Assembly (NCBI RefSeq): GCF_004363725.1
Contig: NZ_SNZF01000001.1
Coordinates: forward strand, 1 to 64,000
Source of the DNA: Aquamicrobium defluvii
GTDB taxonomy: Bacteria > Pseudomonadota > Alphaproteobacteria > Rhizobiales > Rhizobiaceae
Length of the DNA stretch: 64,000 nt
Direction of reading: 5' to 3'
Shown here: piece by piece, positions 4,551 through 27,868 of the stretch
Layout of the letters: each line of letters starts with the position of its first letter
Position numbering within the stretch: position 1 is the first letter of the stretch
Program-made: the position numbers and the translations under genes
The notes under the pieces: model-generated
What the model was told of the DNA's origin: nothing
Database searches by the model: none
What the model saw: the letters and a program-made list of their open reading frames with translations, nothing else

Positions 4551-4586
4551 ATTCCGGATTCAGGACAAATTCCGGATTCAGGACAA
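4551..4586 (+). repeat. 18-bp direct repeat, two adjacent copies
   Basis: The 18-base unit ATTCCGGATTCAGGACAA occurs twice head to tail just after the hydrolase stop codon. It is the only clear structure in the 409-base gap 4547-4955. The rest of that gap shows no convincing gene; a 26-codon frame at 4879-4959 lacks a ribosome binding site. The gap should contain the promoter of the lipoprotein gene at 4956. Confidence 0.8.
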
Positions 4587-4955
4587 GGGATTACGTCGCC
4601 TTTTGCAGATTTCGATTCCGGAACTTCGCGTGAATCCTCAATGCGACGGCCCTTTGCATTGTTCCTCGCAGCCCGGCTGTCGCGGATACGGAAATCCTTC
4701 GACGGAGCGGTAGGGCAGGCGGCGCGGAGATTCCGGGCCGGTGGGCAAGAGTTGCCACCGAAGCGGTCCGGCGTATTGTCCGCGCTCCGCAGGTTTTGCG
4801 AACGCTGCCGGGCCGGTGCGCGGCATGATGTGCCCGCCGACATGGCGCTGCCCCTGTTACAGAGCGAAACGCAACGTTATGAAACAGATAGCGGTTCTCG
4901 GCATTACATTCGCAACCGCCTGCAGAGGCGGGGGTGTTTGTAAGGAGACGAAAAT

Positions 4956-8916: not shown

Positions 8917-8946
8917 TTGACGCCCATAAACCCCCATGTTATCCCA
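8917..8946 (+). promoter_or_regulatory. dcw promoter with three phased MraZ boxes
   Basis: CCCA (TGGG on the minus strand) occurs at 8923-8926, 8933-8936 and 8943-8946, exactly 10 bp apart. This reproduces the TGGGN-N5-TGGGN-N5-TGGGN operator known for MraZ. A sigma70-like promoter, TTGACG (8917-8922), 17-base spacer, TATCCC (8940-8945), overlaps the three boxes, so MraZ bound there would block it. The predicted start near 8952 gives a leader of about 180 bases before mraZ. The rest of the gap 8682-9134 shows a GC-rich hairpin near 8780-8800 and no convincing gene. Confidence 0.65.
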
Positions 8947-9134
8947 TTCACAGATTCAAACTTTCGTTTCGTATCAGGGTGAAGCGTATGCCGGACGGGC
9001 GGCCGCGGCGGCTGTTCGTGCGATGGCGCGCGCCTTTGCGAAGCGGGGTGGGAATGTGAACGAGGGACCGCACCGCGGCGGCGCGTGTGCGAGGATGGAA
9101 AGGGGTTCGGCGGCAAAAGCGGCCGGAGCGCGTC

Positions 9135-9590
9135 ATGGACCGTTTTCTGTCAAGCTCTGTGAACCGGATCGACGCCAAGGGCAGGGTGTCGGTGCCGGCC
9201 CATTTTCGCTCCGTGGTCCAGAAGCGGGGCTATACGGAACTCTATGCGTTGCGGTGTCTGGATCAGCCGGCCATGGATGTCGGCGGGCCCGATCTGCTCG
9301 ACCGCTACGAGCAGCGCATCGCACAGGAAGACCCTTTCCTGCAGACGGCGGACGACATGTCCTTCTTCTGCCATGGCGACGGCGCGTTCCTGAAGCTGGA
9401 TCAGGACGGGCGCATCACGATGACGGATTTCATCCGCGAGCATACAGGCATCGGACAGGAAGTGGCTTTCGTGGGGCGCGGGCAGTTCTTCCAGATCTGG
9501 GAGCCGGGCCGGCTGGCCGGGCATGGCGCGAAGGTGCGCGAGCGGCTTTTGAAGCTCAGGCAGGCCGCAAGCGGAGGGCCGGCGCAATGA
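9135..9590 (+). CDS. mraZ: Transcriptional regulator MraZ
   Basis: The product (151 aa) is the first dcw gene product, a DNA-binding ring-forming regulator of its own operon. Two SpoVT/AbrB-like MraZ repeats are visible: [21 protein letters not shown] near the N-terminus and [20 protein letters not shown] around residues 85-105, each with the conserved D-x-K/D-GR core. The start at 9135 gives the standard MraZ N-terminus; the frame could extend upstream to 9087 but that adds 16 unconserved residues. Three candidate MraZ boxes lie about 190 bases upstream. The stop overlaps rsmH by 4 bases. Confidence 0.95.
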
Positions 9591-10576
9591 CGGCCGGTTC
9601 CGGCGCCGCGGCTCCTCACATTCCTGTTCTTCTCGACGAGGTTATCGAGGCCCTGGCCCCGCAGCCGGGCGAGGTGATCGTCGACGGTACGTTCGGAGCC
9701 GGCGGCTACACGCGCGCCATTCTCGGCACCGGCGCCTTCGTCGTCGCCATCGATCGCGACCCCGACGCCATCGCGGCCGGCAGGGCTCTGGAGGCTGAAC
9801 ACGAGGGCCGCCTGCGGCTGGTTCACGCGCCGTTCTCCTCGCTGGACGCGCATGTGGAGCAGGTCGACGGCGTGGTGCTCGACATCGGCGTTTCCTCCAT
9901 GCAGCTCGATCAGGCGGAACGCGGCTTTTCCTTCCGGGCCGACGGGCCGCTGGACATGCGCATGGCGCAGGTGGGCCTGAGCGCCGCCGATGTCGTCAAC
10001 AGCTACAAGACGTCCGACCTCACCCGCATCTTCGGGCTGCTGGGCGAAGAGCGCCATGCCGGACGCATCGCCCGCATGATCGAGGCGCGGCGCGAGAAGC
10101 GGCTTTTCGCCCGCACGCTGGAACTGGCGGACGCCATCGAGACGCTGGTGGGGCGCGCGCCCAGGGACAAGATCCATCCCGCCACGCGCGTGTTTCAGGC
10201 ACTGCGCATCTATGTCAACGACGAGCTGGGGGAGCTTTCGCGGGCGCTGGTCGCTGCCGAGCGCGCGCTGAAGCCCGGAGGGCGGCTGGTGGTGGTGACT
10301 TTCCATTCGCTGGAAGACCGCATCGTCAAGCGCTTCCTCGCCGACCGCGACGAGACGGTTGGTGGGTCCCGCCATCTGCCGCAGGTCGTCGAGAAGGTGG
10401 CGACCTTCAGGCGCAAGGGCGGCGGCATCACCGCAGGCGATGCGGAAGTGGAGCGCAATCCGCGCGCCCGCTCGGCAAGGCTGCGGGCCGCCGTGCGCAC
10501 CGATGCGCCGCCGCGCGGCGACGATCCTTCGGTTTTCGGGCTTCCAAGGCTTCCCGCCATTTCGGGAGAGAGGTGA
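9587..10576 (+). CDS. rsmH: 16S rRNA (cytosine-1402-N4)-methyltransferase
   Basis: The product (329 aa) methylates the N4 of C1402 in the ribosomal P site using S-adenosylmethionine. The N-terminal [13 protein letters not shown], the SAM-binding [14 protein letters not shown] and the [12 protein letters not shown] and [10 protein letters not shown] segments are the signature stretches of the family. The start ATG overlaps the mraZ stop as ATGA, which marks translational coupling. The C-terminal [11 protein letters not shown] is also characteristic. Length is normal. Confidence 0.96.
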
Positions 10577-21786: not shown

Positions 21787-22748
21787 GCCGGGGGCAGGCG
21801 CTTCTCGACAGTCTTGGCGACAGGCTTTCGGGTCTGCGCGGGCGTCTCACGCCCGATGCGGAGATGGACAAGATCACATGGTTCCGCGCCGGCGGCCTTG
21901 CCGCTGCGCTTTTCCAGCCGGCGGATGAGGAAGACCTCGCAGCCTTCCTGAAGGCGGTGCCGGAGGACGTGCCTGTCATGGTGGTCGGCATCGGATCCAA
22001 CCTCCTGGTGCGCGACGGCGGCATTGAAGGCTTCGTGGTGCGGCTTTCCGCCAGGGGATTTGGCGCGGTCGAGGCGATTTCCGAAACGCGCCTGCGTGCC
22101 GGCACGGCCGTGCCGGACAAGCGCGTCGCCGCCGCCGCCCTGGAGGCCGGCATCGGCGGCTTCCATTTCTATCACGGCATTCCCGGCGCCATCGGCGGCG
22201 CGCTGCGCATGAACGCTGGTGCCAACGGCGTGGAAACGCGCGAGCGGGTCGTCGAGGTGCGGGCGCTCGACCGCAAGGGCGATGTTCATGTGCTCTCCAA
22301 TGCCGACATGGGCTATGCCTATCGCCATAGTTCCGCACCGACGGACCTGATCTTCACCTCTGCCGTGTTCGAGGGCTATGGCGAGGACAAGGAGACGATC
22401 AGGGCGGCGATGGATGAAGTGCAGCACCACCGCGAGACAGTTCAGCCGATCCGGGAGAAGACCGGCGGCTCGACTTTCAAGAACCCGGAGGGCACATCGG
22501 CCTGGAAGGAGATCGACAGGGCTGGCTGCCGGGGCCTGATGATCGGCGGCGCGCAGATGTCGCCCATGCATTGCAACTTCATGATCAACACGGGTTCGGC
22601 CTCCGGCTACGATCTCGAGTATCTCGGCGAGACGGTGCGCGCGCGTGTGCTCGAAAATTCCGGCATCCGCCTGCATTGGGAAATCAGGCGCATCGGCGAA
22701 TTTCGTCCCGGCCGTGAGGTACAGGAGTTCCTCGGGCAGTTGCTCTGA
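21783..22748 (+). CDS. murB: UDP-N-acetylenolpyruvoylglucosamine reductase MurB (TTG start)
   Basis: The product (321 aa) is the FAD enzyme that makes UDP-MurNAc. The FAD-binding segments [15 protein letters not shown] and [17 protein letters not shown] are clear, and the proton donor Ser230 lies in GGSTFKNP. I place the start at TTG 21783, which overlaps the murC stop as TTGA and has GGGAGG seven bases upstream. The first downstream ATG would drop about 27 residues that belong to the MurB N-terminus. This breaks the ATGA pattern seen at the other junctions and may lower its translation. Confidence 0.93.
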
Positions 22749-22750
22749 GG

Positions 22751-22929
22751 ACTCACAAAGGTAAAATTTCACTCAAATTCGCAGAAAGTGAATCTCCCGG
22801 AATCCTGAGGGCTTGCCACGGAATCAACTCTCTGATTCTTTGGGGTTAAGGCGTTTCCTGATTTGAGTCGTTCGGCGCGTAGGTCGCGGTTCCCGACGGG
22901 GCTGCAACCACAGACTCGGATTCTGACTC
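22751..22929. promoter_or_regulatory. Cluster of nine GANTC (CcrM) methylation sites upstream of ddlB
   Basis: The 222-base gap between murB and ddlB contains GANTC at 22751, 22791, 22800, 22821, 22834, 22865, 22913, 22919 and 22925. A five-base motif with one free position is expected about once per 256 bases. The last three are spaced exactly 6 bp apart. In alphaproteobacteria GANTC is methylated by CcrM and read by GcrA at cell-cycle promoters, so this gap probably holds a cell-cycle promoter for ddlB-ftsQAZ. No convincing sigma70 hexamer pair stands out. Confidence 0.75.
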
Positions 22930-22970
22930 AGGAAACAAGGATCGAGTGCCCGCCGAGGGGATGACGGGAT

Positions 22971-23897
22971 ATGACCAGCAAGCACGTTGCCGTATTGATG
23001 GGGGGGGTCTCAAGCGAGCGCCCTGTTTCCCTCTCTTCCGGCAATGCCTGTGCTGATGCGCTCGAAGCCGAGGGCTACAGGGTCACCCGTGTCGATGTCG
23101 ATCGCAATGTGAGTGCCGTTCTTTCCGGGTTGAAGCCGGATGTCGCCTTCAATGCGCTGCATGGACCGTTCGGTGAGGATGGCGTCATTCAGGGCGTTCT
23201 CGAATATCTGGAAATTCCCTATACGCATTCGGGCGTGCTGGCCTCGGCTCTCGCCATGAACAAGGAGCAGGCCAAGAAGGTTGCGCGCGCAGCCGGCGTC
23301 CCGGTGGCGGAATCGAAGGTCGTCAACCGGTTCGGGATTGGCAATGCGCATCCGATGGCGCCGCCCTATGTGGTGAAGCCTGTCGCCGAGGGGTCCAGCT
23401 TCGGCGTGGTCATTGTCGGGGAAGATCAGTCGCATCCGCCGCAGATCGTCTCCTCGCCCGACTGGAGTTATGGCGAGAGCGTCATGGTCGAGCGCTATGT
23501 GGCCGGGCGCGAGCTTACCTGCGCGGTGATGGGCGATGTCGCGCTCGGGGTGTGCGAGATCATTCCGACCGGCCATTCCTTCTACGATTACGATTCGAAA
23601 TATGTCGCGGGCGGATCAAAACACGAAACGCCTGCGAAACTTTCACCGAATATTTACCAAAAAATACAGACACTGGCGCTCAAGGCTCATCAAGCGATCG
23701 GCTGCCGGGGCGTGTCCCGGTCTGACTTCCGTTACGACGATCGTCATTCCGAAAATGGCGAGATCGTCTGGCTGGAAGTCAATACCCAGCCGGGCATGAC
23801 GCCGACGTCCCTGGTGCCCGAGATCGCCGCGCATGCAGGGCATTCCTTCGGCGATCTTTTGAGCTGGATGGTGGAGGACGCTTCGTGTCTTCGTTGA
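22971..23897 (+). CDS. ddlB: D-alanine--D-alanine ligase
   Basis: The product (308 aa) makes the D-Ala-D-Ala dipeptide used by MurF. It has an ATP-grasp fold: [17 protein letters not shown] near the N-terminus, [15 protein letters not shown], the substrate-binding [11 protein letters not shown], and the metal-binding [16 protein letters not shown] at the C-terminus. It is the first gene after the GANTC-rich gap, so it likely heads a transcript with ftsQ, ftsA and ftsZ. Its end overlaps ftsQ by 13 bases. Confidence 0.96.
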
Positions 23898-24796
23898 GGT
23901 CGGGACGTATGGGTCATGGTGGGCTGGCTGGCCTGGTGCCTGCCGTGCGTCCTGTCATGCCGCGCTGGCTGCGCCGTCCGCTGCGTGTGTTTTCGAGGCT
24001 GGGGGAGGGTGCCTATGCGGCGCCCCGCTTTGCTGCCACCATTCTATCCGTTGCGCTGCTGTCGTCGAGCGCGACCTATGGCGCCTATCTCGGCGGCCAG
24101 CTCGAGGATTTCGTGCAGGGCGTCACGGCCCGGACCGGCTTCGCCGTCGACCAGATCAGGGTCGTCGGCAATCAGTATACGTCCGAGATCGACATCCTCG
24201 ACCGGCTGGAACTGAACGGGTGGACCGCGCTGGTCGGGCTCGATGTCGTCGATGCGCGCGACAGGATCGCGTCGTTGCCCTGGGTTCAGCATGCCACGGT
24301 TCGCAAGGTCTACCCCAACACGCTGGAAGTGCGCGTCGATGAGCGCGAGCCGTTTGCCATCTGGCAGCAGGGGCAGGCGCTCAATGTCATCGAAGAGAAC
24401 GGCCGGGTCATTGCGCCGTTCTCTGGCGGTAGGCTGGCTTCGTTGCCGCTGATCGTCGGTACTGGCGCTCCCGAACATGCGCCGAAGCTCATCGCGCGCA
24501 TTGCGGACGTGCCGGAGCTTGCCGGTCGCGTGAAGGGCTATGTGCGTGTCGGCGAGCGTCGCTGGAATCTGCATCTGGACAATGGCGTCACCGTCAAGCT
24601 GCCGGAGCATGGCGTCGGTGCCGCGCTGGAAAGGCTGGCGCAGCTCGACCGCGAGCAAGGCCTGCTCGGACGTGACATCGTGGCGGTCGATCTGAGGATT
24701 CCCGATCGGGTTGCGGTGGCGCTTTCGCCCGATGCCTCAGCGGCACGTCTGGCGGCGCTCAAGGGCGCTGCGCGCAAGTCGGGGAGCCGCATATGA
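23885..24796 (+). CDS. ftsQ: Cell division protein FtsQ (GTG start)
   Basis: The product (303 aa) is the bitopic divisome scaffold that binds FtsL and FtsB. A long cytoplasmic N-terminus precedes one span (about residues 47-68). The POTRA domain begins at [21 protein letters not shown] and the FtsQ domain at [27 protein letters not shown] chose GTG 23885, inside ddlB, because GGAGG sits seven bases before it; ATG 23909 is a possible alternative. The stop overlaps ftsA (ATGA). Confidence 0.92.
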
Positions 24797-26100
24797 ACTG
24801 GTTGCGCAAGAGTGGCGATGCCTCGGCCCGGCGTTCGGGCGTTCTCACCGTGCTCGACGTGGGGTCGAGCAAGGTCTGCTGCGTGGTGGCGAAGCTCCAG
24901 CCCTGCGAGGACGGCAACCTGCTGCGCGGGCGCACCCATCGTATCCAGGTGATCGGCATCGGCCACCAGAAATCGCAGGGCATGAAGTCCGGCGTGGTGG
25001 TGGATCTGGAACGCGCCGAGCATGCCATACGGCTGGCTGTGGACTCGGCCGAGCGCATGGCGGGGCTGACCGTCGACTCGCTGATCGTCAACATGACCGC
25101 CGGCCGGCTGAAGAGCGAAACCTTCTCCGCCACCGTCAATCTCGGCGGCCACGAGGTGGATGAGAGCGACATCAGGCGTGTGCTGGCGGCCGGTGCGCGT
25201 CAGGCGCTGAAATCCGAGCGCGAGGTGATCCACTCGCTGCCCGTGGGCTTCTCGCTCGACGCCGAGCGCGGCGTTCGCGACCCGCGCGGCATGGTGGGCG
25301 ACACGCTGGGCGTCGACATGCACGTTCTGACCGGCGATGCGGCACCGCTGCGCAACATCGAGCTGGCCATCAACCGCTCGCATCTTTCGGTCGAGCGCAT
25401 GGTGGCGACCCCTTACGCCAGCGGTCTCGCCGCACTGGTGGACGACGAGCTGGAAATGGGGGCTGCCTGCATCGACATGGGTGGCGGCACGACCACCATC
25501 TCCATCTTCTCCGAAGGCAATTTCGTGCATGGCGACGCGATTCCCGTCGGCGGCAACCATGTGACGCTGGACCTTGCCAAGGGGCTTTCCACCACCATCG
25601 AGGCGGCGGAGCGGCTGAAGGTCATGCATGGTTCGGCTCTGCCCGGCAGCGCCGACGACCGCGACCTCGTCACCATTCATCCCATCGGCGACGACCATGG
25701 CGCGCCGATGCAGATTCCGCGTTCGGTCATGACCCGCATCATCCGCGCCCGCGTCGAGGAGACGCTGGAAATGCTGCGCGACCGTATCAGCAAATCAGGT
25801 TATGCCAGCGCGATCGGCAAGCGAATCGTGCTGACAGGCGGCGCCAGCCAGCTTGCCGGTCTCCCGGAAGCTGCTCGCCGCATTCTTGGGCGCAACGTGC
25901 GCACCGGACGCCCGCTGGGCGTTGCGGGGCTGCCCGAAGCGGCCAAGGGGCCGGCATTCTCGACGGTGGTCGGGCTCCTCATCTATCCGCAGGTGGCGAA
26001 TTTCGAGAGCCGTCCTGCCAGGGGCGGGGCCGTGTTCAGGATGACCGGGACGGACGGGCGACTGTATCGCGTAAGTCAGTGGTTGAGAGACAGTTTCTAG
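24793..26100 (+). CDS. ftsA: Cell division protein FtsA
   Basis: The product (435 aa) is the actin-like protein that tethers FtsZ to the membrane. The phosphate 1 motif [13 protein letters not shown] is near residue 20. [11 protein letters not shown], the phosphate 2 motif [14 protein letters not shown] and the late [13 protein letters not shown] are all present. The C-terminus ends in [11 protein letters not shown], which fits the amphipathic membrane-targeting helix. It overlaps ftsQ by 4 bases and is 67 bases upstream of ftsZ. Confidence 0.96.
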
Positions 26101-26167
26101 AGTTAACGGGGACAGCCCCCAGGCGGCCGCTATGGCGAAGCGGCGGGAAAGGCAAAGGACGAGGACA

Positions 26168-27868
26168 ATGGCAATCAATCTTCAGAAGCCGGACATCACC
26201 GAGCTGAAGCCGCGCATCACCGTTTTCGGTGTCGGCGGGGGCGGCGGCAACGCAGTCAACAACATGATCACCGCCGGTCTGCGCGGCGTCGAGTTCGTTG
26301 TGGCGAACACCGACGCCCAGGCGCTGACCATGTCGAAGGCCGAGCGGCTCATCCAGCTTGGCGCGCATGTCACCGAGGGGCTGGGCGCCGGTTCGCAGCC
26401 GGAAGTGGGCCGCGCCGCCGCTGAAGAATGCATCGACGAGATCAACGATCACCTGTCCAATACGCATATGTGCTTCGTCACCGCCGGCATGGGCGGCGGC
26501 ACCGGCACGGGCGCCGCTCCGGTCGTCGCACGCGCGGCCCGTGAAAAGGGCATCCTGACGGTCGGCGTCGTCACCAAGCCGTTCCATTTCGAGGGCCAGC
26601 GCCGCATGAAGACGGCCGACCTCGGCATTGAGGAGCTGCAAAAGTCGGTCGACACGCTCATCGTCATCCCGAACCAGAACCTGTTCCGCCTTGCCAACGA
26701 CAAGACCACCTTTGCCGATGCCTTCGCCATGGCCGATCAGGTGCTCTATTCGGGCGTTGCCTGCATCACCGACCTGATGGTCAAGGAGGGCCTGATCAAC
26801 CTCGATTTCGCCGACGTGCGTTCGGTGATGCGCGAGATGGGCAAGGCCATGATGGGCACCGGCGAAGCTTCCGGCGAGGGCCGCGCCATGGCCGCTGCCG
26901 AGGCCGCCATTGCCAACCCGCTGCTCGACGAGACCTCGATGCGCGGCGCCAAGGGCCTGCTGATCTCGATCACAGGCGGCCGCGATCTTACCCTGTTCGA
27001 GGTGGACGAGGCGGCGACCCGCATCCGCGAGGAAGTCGACCAGGACGCCAACATCATTCTCGGCGCCACCTTCGACGAGGAACTGGAAGGCGTCATCCGG
27101 GTGTCAGTGGTTGCCACCGGCATCGACAAGTCGGCCGAAGAAATCGCGGCGACCCCGATCGCCATCCGCCCTCCGCAGGCCAAGCCGGTTGTCCGCCCGG
27201 CGGCCGAGGCCCGTCCGGTTGTCCAGCCCGCACCGCAGCCTGCTCCGGTTCATGAGTCGCGCGCTGCCGATCCGGTCGCCGAAGCCTTCCAGATGGCCGA
27301 GCAGAACGCCGCCGCCATGGCGCAGCGCCCGGTGCAGGCATCGGATGACTTTCGCCCCCAGAGCAAGCTCTTCCAGCAGGCTCAGCCGCACCAGCCCGTG
27401 CAGCAGTTCCAGCAGCCCGTGGTGACGCAGCAGACGGCGCTTCAGATGCAGCCCGCACCGCAGCCGGTCCATCCCGCTCCGCAGCCGCGCGAGATGCATC
27501 AGCCGGCAGCGCCGCAGCGCATGCCGCGCGTGGAGGATTTCCCGCCGGTCGTGCGTGCCGAGGTCGAGGCCAAGAGCAACCCGGTCAGCCATGAGGAACG
27601 CGGCCCGATGGGGCTGCTCAAGCGCCTCACCAACGGCCTGACCCGCCGCGAGGAAGAGCCGGCGCGTCTCCAGCCTGCCCAGCCGCGCGAGCCGAAGCTG
27701 CGCCAGGCCCAGCCGGAAGTGCGCCGCGCGCCTTCGCAGGACTCGCAGCTTTATGCACCGCGCCGTGGCCAGCTCGACGATCAGGGCCGCCTGGTCGCCA
27801 GGCCGCATGCCGCTCACGACGACGATCAGCTCGAGATTCCGGCTTTCCTGCGCCGACAGGCAAACTGA
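26168..27868 (+). CDS. ftsZ: Cell division GTPase FtsZ with long C-terminal linker
   Basis: The product (566 aa) forms the Z ring. The tubulin signature GGGTGTG lies at 109-115. The GTPase core covers about residues 10-335. A Gln/Pro/Ala-rich linker of about 200 residues follows, and the conserved C-terminal peptide [16 protein letters not shown] ends the protein and should bind FtsA. Such long linkers are usual in rhizobia. I chose ATG 26168 (AGGACGAGGAC upstream, [17 protein letters not shown]) over an in-frame ATG at 26132. A strong terminator follows. Confidence 0.97.

Follow-up and report, generated by a model that had tools for sequence, protein, structure and literature searches.

The window analysed here, a stretch of 64,000 nucleotides from Aquamicrobium defluvii, carries a division-gene locus for which profile searches gave the order ftsW, murG, murC, murB, an intergenic gap, ddl, ftsQ (weak), ftsA, ftsZ, lpxC and bamD, with rsmH, a penicillin-binding protein gene, murE, murF, mraY and murD further upstream. 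The gap is followed by these genes:

22971..23897, plus strand: ddl (ddlB), D-alanine--D-alanine ligase, profile match
23885..24796, plus strand: ftsQ, weak profile match, under the curated cut-off
24793..26100, plus strand: ftsA, profile match
26132..27868, plus strand: ftsZ, profile match

The open frame bearing RsmH (8936-10576) contains 225 residues N-terminal of the RsmH match without any Pfam match. A preliminary description of this DNA had taken mraZ as a landmark of the locus and the murB-ddlB gap as the only large one between mraZ and lpxC. Neither statement is supported: a Pfam search with PF02381, which matched 7 of 14 control genomes including Caulobacter, did not find MraZ in the genome, and the gap between ftsZ and lpxC measures 283 bp. 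This latter gap contains no GANTC site, nor does the 31-bp gap between ftsA and ftsZ.

The murB-ddlB gap is 222 bp long (22749..22970, plus strand), bordered by the murB stop codon ending at 22748 and the ddlB start at 22971, and contains nine GANTC sites starting at 22750, 22790, 22800, 22821, 22834, 22865, 22913, 22919 and 22925. The nine sites announced previously are thus all found in this one gap, although the first starts at 22750, one base lower than described. The gap comprises the following features, the 48 clusters being groups of related sequences described below:

22750..22754, plus strand: GACTC, beside the murB stop codon
22790..22794, plus strand: GAATC, upstream of the element; GANTC letters kept in 34-38 of 48 clusters
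22800..22804, plus strand: GAATC, upstream of the element, 10 bp past the 22790 site; letters kept in 32-42 of 48 clusters, the last two letters showing 9-10 alignment gaps
22812..22818, plus strand: CTTGCCA, predicted -35 element, its TTG 21 nt upstream of the G in core site 1
22821..22825, plus strand: GAATC, in the spacer of the predicted -35 and -10, 13 bp upstream of core site 1; seen in the Mesorhizobium-like branch
22831..22839, plus strand: core site 1, TCTGATTCT, whose GANTC (22834-22838) has a predicted overlap with the -10 region
22853..22870, plus strand: GTTTCCTGATTTGAGTCG block; its GAGTC at 22865-22869 is core site 2 and has the GcrA-type context TGAGTCG; the block served as search probe
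22913..22929, plus strand: GACTC-G-GATTC-T-GACTC triplet in 6-bp steps, in the predicted leader; third site in few relatives

Across the 64 kb of the window, GANTC is rare (111 sites observed versus 296 expected from shuffles), so that the 23-fold enrichment of the gap relative to the window rate exceeds what a rate of one site in 256 would suggest. Nine sites in 180 bp is the maximum of the window, the next separate cluster having five, at 4557. Within this second cluster (4557-4733, five sites in 180 bp), TTCCGGATTCAGGACAA occurs twice at a distance of 18 bp. A sample of 734 kb from the same genome, made of the window and further stretches with 10,098 letters masked, contains 1,171 GANTC sites (1.60 per kb; N is T in 497, A in 442, C in 119 and G in 113), and outside the gap no 180-bp stretch of this sample holds more than five. 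Among 16 palindromic NNxNN motifs compared in the gap, GANTC is the most enriched; AANTT and CTNAG are enriched 11- to 12-fold, but on 3 and 2 copies. A search for a long repeat from which the nine sites might derive gave short repeats only, and the sites are therefore not copies of a longer repeat.

Since the gap is less GC-rich than the window (54% versus 64%), its composition favours GANTC, and the cluster might in principle be an effect of chance or composition. Yet in 10,000 dinucleotide shuffles of the gap the mean was 1.84 sites and the maximum 8, nine being reached in none, so that, as the preliminary description had held, the cluster is not a product of chance. Conservation already contradicts such an origin, whose probability we regard as close to nil. 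In the genus set (20 resolved gaps, namely the window and 19 genus relatives, drawn from 30 loci of which 10 were left out because the murB stop was not located, nine of them on the other strand), each gap contains 5 to 10 GANTC sites, and five of these recur in 20/20 gaps with steps of 10, 21, 13 and 30-31 bp. Downstream of the five recurring sites, 13 of these loci have a pair of sites 6 bp apart, four a single site and one none; the remaining two, the window and the relative nearest to it, carry the triplet.

Named genomes scanned for exact copies of the GTTTCCTGATTTGAGTCG block gave at least 116 stretches; close relatives bear the name Mesorhizobium. Among the 116 matches listed, ddlB lies 105-200 bp downstream in 111, two have murB upstream but no ddlB start was found, and three have neither. 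A Mesorhizobium-like element with ddlB downstream was seen on contig JACFNY010000204.1 (L113), titled Sphingomonadaceae, which is probably a misassigned metagenome contig. From the matches listed, 113 sequences were grouped into 48 clusters, in which the probe block is invariant by construction. CTTG (22812-22815) and TCTGATTC (22831-22838) are invariant in all 48. The 22821 site is kept in about 46 (G in 48, A, T and C in 46 each) and those at 22790 and 22800 in most, while on the 3' side 22919 is kept in about 41 clusters, 22913 in about 29-36 and 22925 in 10-17. The triplet at 22913..22929, whose 6-bp spacing had been put forward as a key feature, is real as regards this spacing but is the least conserved part of the cluster, its third site being kept in few relatives.

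At the level of the family, blastn with the gap matched 92 of 247 genomes, in 44 of 109 genera. A ddlB start was located in 157 of 165 family loci (8 were without), and dropping 15 repeats left 142 distinct upstream sequences. A TTG at exactly 21 nt ahead of a GANTC is found in 116 of these, which is not a whole-family fraction since the 142 are the more DdlB-similar part of the family sample and some were picked through their blastn match; among the other TTG-GANTC distances from 10 to 40, none exceeds 32 of 142. The selection of the 116 required a T before GA and left N free, and core site 1 is nevertheless TGATTC, with T as N, in 116/116. A second GANTC, searched over 24-40 bp with no sequence giving two candidates, lies 29-33 bp past core site 1 in 111 and is missing in five. 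This core site 2 reads TGAGTCG in 81 cases, TGATTCG in 22, TGATTCT in 4, CGATTCG in 2, and TGATTCC and CGAATCA in 1 each. The element can thus be written as TTG, 21 nt, TGATTC, about 31 bp, and TGAGTCG or TGATTCG, the letters between core sites 1 and 2 being poorly conserved family-wide. It is absent from 26 of the 142 sequences. Conservation of site number and spacing in relatives had been set beforehand as the test on which the idea could fail. The spacing of the element stood, that of TTG and GATTC as well as that of the next site, whereas the number did not, ranging from 0 to 10 GANTC in the last 320 nt before ddlB: the other sites come and go, and site number is not the conserved feature.

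Beyond the family, blastn with a 64-nt probe matched 4 of 150 genomes of the order, all of the own genus, a weak test because the same type of search misses the Rhizobium-like form within the family. TTG-21-GANTC was found in none of 17 loci of other families of the order, which have 0-2 GANTC (a ddlB start was found in 17 of 20 loci, two of them with only 138 and 294 nt upstream).

The TTG-N17-TGATTC unit is unique to the gap on both strands of the 734 kb. The rhizobial -35 consensus is CTTGAC, and the predicted -35 element reads CTTGCCA. Consensus scans of 22600-23100 gave neither a sigma70 promoter, for which -35 and -10 hexamers 16-18 bp apart would be looked for, nor a terminator, and GATTC matches TATAAT poorly in every register, though its distance to TTG is invariant. 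Such a unit might be a conserved sigma70 promoter with GATTC as its -10 sequence, or it might bind an unknown regulator with GATTC as operator, methylation and GcrA being uninvolved in either case. A fixed TTG-21-TGATTC whose first site always has T as N, which is more than CcrM needs, points in this direction, as does the fact that ftsZ of A. tumefaciens hardly responds to CcrM depletion: in the available text of that study (PMC11514494), one of two media gave a decrease of ftsZ smaller than 2-fold and the other no significant decrease, data that argue against a strong CcrM effect on ftsZ in this species.

There are, however, signs that the GANTC motif itself is selected, which such a promoter would leave unaccounted for. 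In sequences with the element, GANTC is found 262 times outside the core compared to 116.2 in shuffles, a 2.25-fold excess (88 non-redundant sequences), part of which is due to shared ancestry of the Mesorhizobium-like sites; the rearranged control motifs there give 1.10 (TCNGA), 1.15 (AGNCT) and 0.84 (CTNAG), and where the element is absent the excess vanishes (18 GANTC versus 17.2 expected, 1.05-fold, 15 sequences). Core site 2 swaps G and T at N yet stays GANTC in 111 of 116 sequences. On a DdlB tree of 60 rows, N of this site changed at least nine times, a number that is only rough given the weak support of the tree (four of 57 inner branches starred, 29 open); one change involved A and the others G and T, A being rare here although it is the second commonest N in the genome. 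Finally, core site 1 has a GANTC partner at 13 bp, upstream in 82 of 116 sequences, downstream in 17 and on both sides in none, so that GANTC is kept while its place changes. These observations count against a promoter indifferent to methylation, which we therefore consider unlikely.

The position of the 13-bp partner goes along with a CtrA-like box, which is present in 16 of the 17 sequences with a downstream partner versus 0 of the 82 with an upstream one. This box is present in 40 family sequences out of 142, 21 of them among the 116 that possess the element and 19 among the 26 that lack it, and the sequences that have it are poorer in GANTC (mean 3.4 versus 5.5). A strongly conserved CtrA-like block, GGTTAACGAAAGTAAACGCTTCATTAACC, lies between the GANTC element and ddlB in Rhizobium-like loci (L235, L240, L242, L245, L249 and others) and is absent from the Mesorhizobium-like branch. 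In the murB-ddlB gap of the window, the CtrA box TTAA-N7-TTAA is absent.

Both partners of a methylation-dependent control appear to be encoded in the genome. The GcrA domain (PF07750, matching 2 of 14 control genomes, including Sulfolobus) gave three matches, on contigs C2, C13 and C54, one of them strong at 200 bits, the other two weaker at 73 and 71 bits. The RAMA domain (PF18755, Caulobacter being the only matching control), which we take as a marker of CcrM, gave one. Each of the two domains is found in 244 of 247 family genomes.

In the accessible parts of two reports (PMC8725594, PMC7987155), the extended motif of GcrA-activated sites is given as YGAKTCK and traced to a 2015 study. Within the gap, YGAKTCK is fitted at 22834 and 22865 on the plus strand and at 22913 on the minus strand, that is by 3 of 9 sites compared to 30 of 111 GANTC in the window, so that the bare number proves nothing and it is conservation that carries the argument; in the 734-kb sample, the two strands together give 296 matches for 1,171 GANTC. 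Across the family, the motif is fitted by core site 2 in 109 of 111 sequences and by core site 1 in 80 of 116, the 36 misfits of the latter ending in C or A. The element would in these respects, and by its predicted promoter-proximal placement, resemble the methylated promoters served by GcrA and sigma70. It should be noted that the motif was defined in Caulobacter and was not recovered in Brevundimonas, for which the available text reports no extended motif at GcrA targets and a slight preference for C before the site (PMC7987155); the role of GcrA proposed here is predicted from the motif. In the same source, GcrA-dependence is assigned when GcrA is bound between -40 and +40 relative to a mapped start and expression is lost without GcrA. 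Other published extracts report GANTC enriched 4.4- and 4.7-fold in B. abortus GcrA peaks (PMC6813329) and, for Caulobacter, an association between GANTC located from -35 to -10 and activation of the start site at 40-60 min (PMC4287350). For Ensifer, the text at hand describes no GANTC enrichment in cell-cycle gene promoters as a group (PMC8725594).

Relatives show partial conservation of the 3' part of the gap, as might be seen if this part formed an RNA leader element of the ddlB transcript with incidental GANTC sites. Such a leader is very improbable: no Rfam family scored above chance, the consensus fold of 16 leaders predicts zero pairs, the single folds of 19 leaders differ, and the most conserved part of the gap lies upstream of the predicted start. 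Leaders of L117, L142 and their relatives often hold CCGTCTGG...CCGGAAGACTCGGACTC between core site 2 and ddlB; a small hairpin is conceivable there, with no pair in the consensus fold of the 16 leaders.

Taken together, the cluster, its fixed spacing and conservation, the GcrA-type context of core site 2, the GANTC-free gap between ftsA and ftsZ and the GcrA and RAMA genes, all read directly from the DNA, lead us to propose, with a probability of roughly 0.6, that the family-conserved element within the GANTC cluster is a promoter of ddlB, ftsQ, ftsA and ftsZ activated by GcrA with sigma70-RNA polymerase at CcrM-methylated sites. TTG would provide the -35 contact and the first GATTC would overlap the -10 region, its poor match to TATAAT being as in an activator-dependent promoter; transcription would start near 22843-22850 and feed ddlB, ftsQ, ftsA and ftsZ. 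CcrM would methylate the sites, GcrA would read core site 2 and often core site 1, and GcrA and sigma70 would open the promoter when the sites are methylated. The passage of the replication fork would leave the sites hemimethylated until the late activity of CcrM; as CcrM is active late in the cell cycle in S. meliloti, according to the accessible text of PMC5172544, the cluster would link the transcription of division genes to replication. The remaining GANTC sites may help to keep GcrA close by, and a graded or cooperative response to the sites is possible. Several observations speak against the proposal: the modest response of ftsZ in A. tumefaciens, the unenriched cell-cycle promoters of Ensifer, the Brevundimonas GcrA targets, the 36 misfits of core site 1, the sequences that lack the element or core site 2, and the consensus scan that gave no sigma70 promoter. 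The control of ddlB-ftsQAZ by GcrA and CcrM suggested in the preliminary description is supported in part, by a cluster conserved before these genes, on a promoter-like element whose 22865 site, one of the two most deeply conserved, agrees with the GcrA motif in 109 of the 111 family sequences that have it.

Methylation could also act in the opposite sense, by lowering transcription, or a protein such as MucR could hide the sites and set a local hypomethylation. In A. tumefaciens the gcrA promoter has 6 GANTC in 250 bp and is less active when methylated (available text of PMC11514494), and MucR shields GANTC sites in S. meliloti (likewise in part of PMC5172544); by contrast, the GcrA-type context of core site 2 fits activation, and the published Caulobacter ftsZ case is one of activation (PMC3708114, as far as its text was available). 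A repressing or shielding region at this place seems quite improbable to us.

Activation by GcrA at methylated sites would have a close parallel in the CcrM-activated ftsZ and mipZ promoters of Caulobacter crescentus, where GANTC lies in the promoter region of essential division genes and is conserved in close relatives. In the available text of PMC3708114, activity of the ftsZ promoter goes up with methylation, and that of the ftsZ and mipZ promoters is lowest when unmethylated, intermediate when hemimethylated and highest when fully methylated. Unlike these promoters, the sites described here, known from sequence, lie upstream of ddlB, where they head ddlB-ftsQAZ some 3 kb away from ftsZ; there are up to nine of them with a fixed TTG-21 spacing instead of a single conserved CGACTC, and the core contexts are TGATTC and TGAKTCG rather than CGACTC. 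The gcrA promoter of A. tumefaciens, for which the published extract speaks of a "strong over-representation", is likewise a GANTC cluster that precedes a cell-cycle gene in a bacterium of the same order, but it concerns another gene and another arrangement, and methylation represses there, also in E. coli (PMC11514494). The CtrA-controlled ftsQA promoter of Caulobacter (PMC4433202, text available in part) similarly places cell-cycle control upstream of ftsQ, but the gap studied here has no TTAA-N7-TTAA box.

Beyond the proposed GcrA-activated promoter, one may imagine that the GANTC array heading ddlB-ftsQAZ is the division-replication switch of the Rhizobiaceae, in which one methylatable site doubles as the -10 region and is followed, three helical turns further on, by a second GcrA site, and that the lineages with a CtrA-like box moved the 13-bp partner to the other side or lost the element. 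We advance this wider scheme very tentatively and hold it to be doubtful.

No description of a GANTC element between murB and ddlB was found in the open-licence literature, judged largely from titles and abstract openings. The GANTC-bearing element before the division genes is real and conserved and, as far as these literature searches show, undescribed. A 2013 paper states, in its available part, that GANTC is not frequent in the ftsZ and mipZ promoters of Rhizobiales (PMC3708114). Since the element lies before ddlB and not before ftsZ, it is compatible with that sentence, and its placement at the head of the operon may explain why the link was discounted for Rhizobiales in that text. It weakens the conclusion drawn there from GANTC-poor promoters. 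Similarly, the GANTC count for A. tumefaciens given in the accessible text of PMC11514494 covered the 200 bp upstream of ftsZ and found one site.

What makes CcrM essential in Rhizobiales continues to be debated. The answer from Caulobacter, methylation of the ftsZ promoter, has been set aside, for Rhizobiales because of few GANTC sites (PMC3708114) and for A. tumefaciens because of a weak ftsZ response (PMC11514494), both as given in the available parts of these papers. The element described here heads the operon, beyond the stretch covered by counts upstream of ftsZ, and is kept over much of the family. If the proposed control is true, cell division would be tied to DNA replication in bacteria where such a link through ftsZ had been judged unlikely, and the two sites within one predicted promoter would give the link between methylation and division a precise place.
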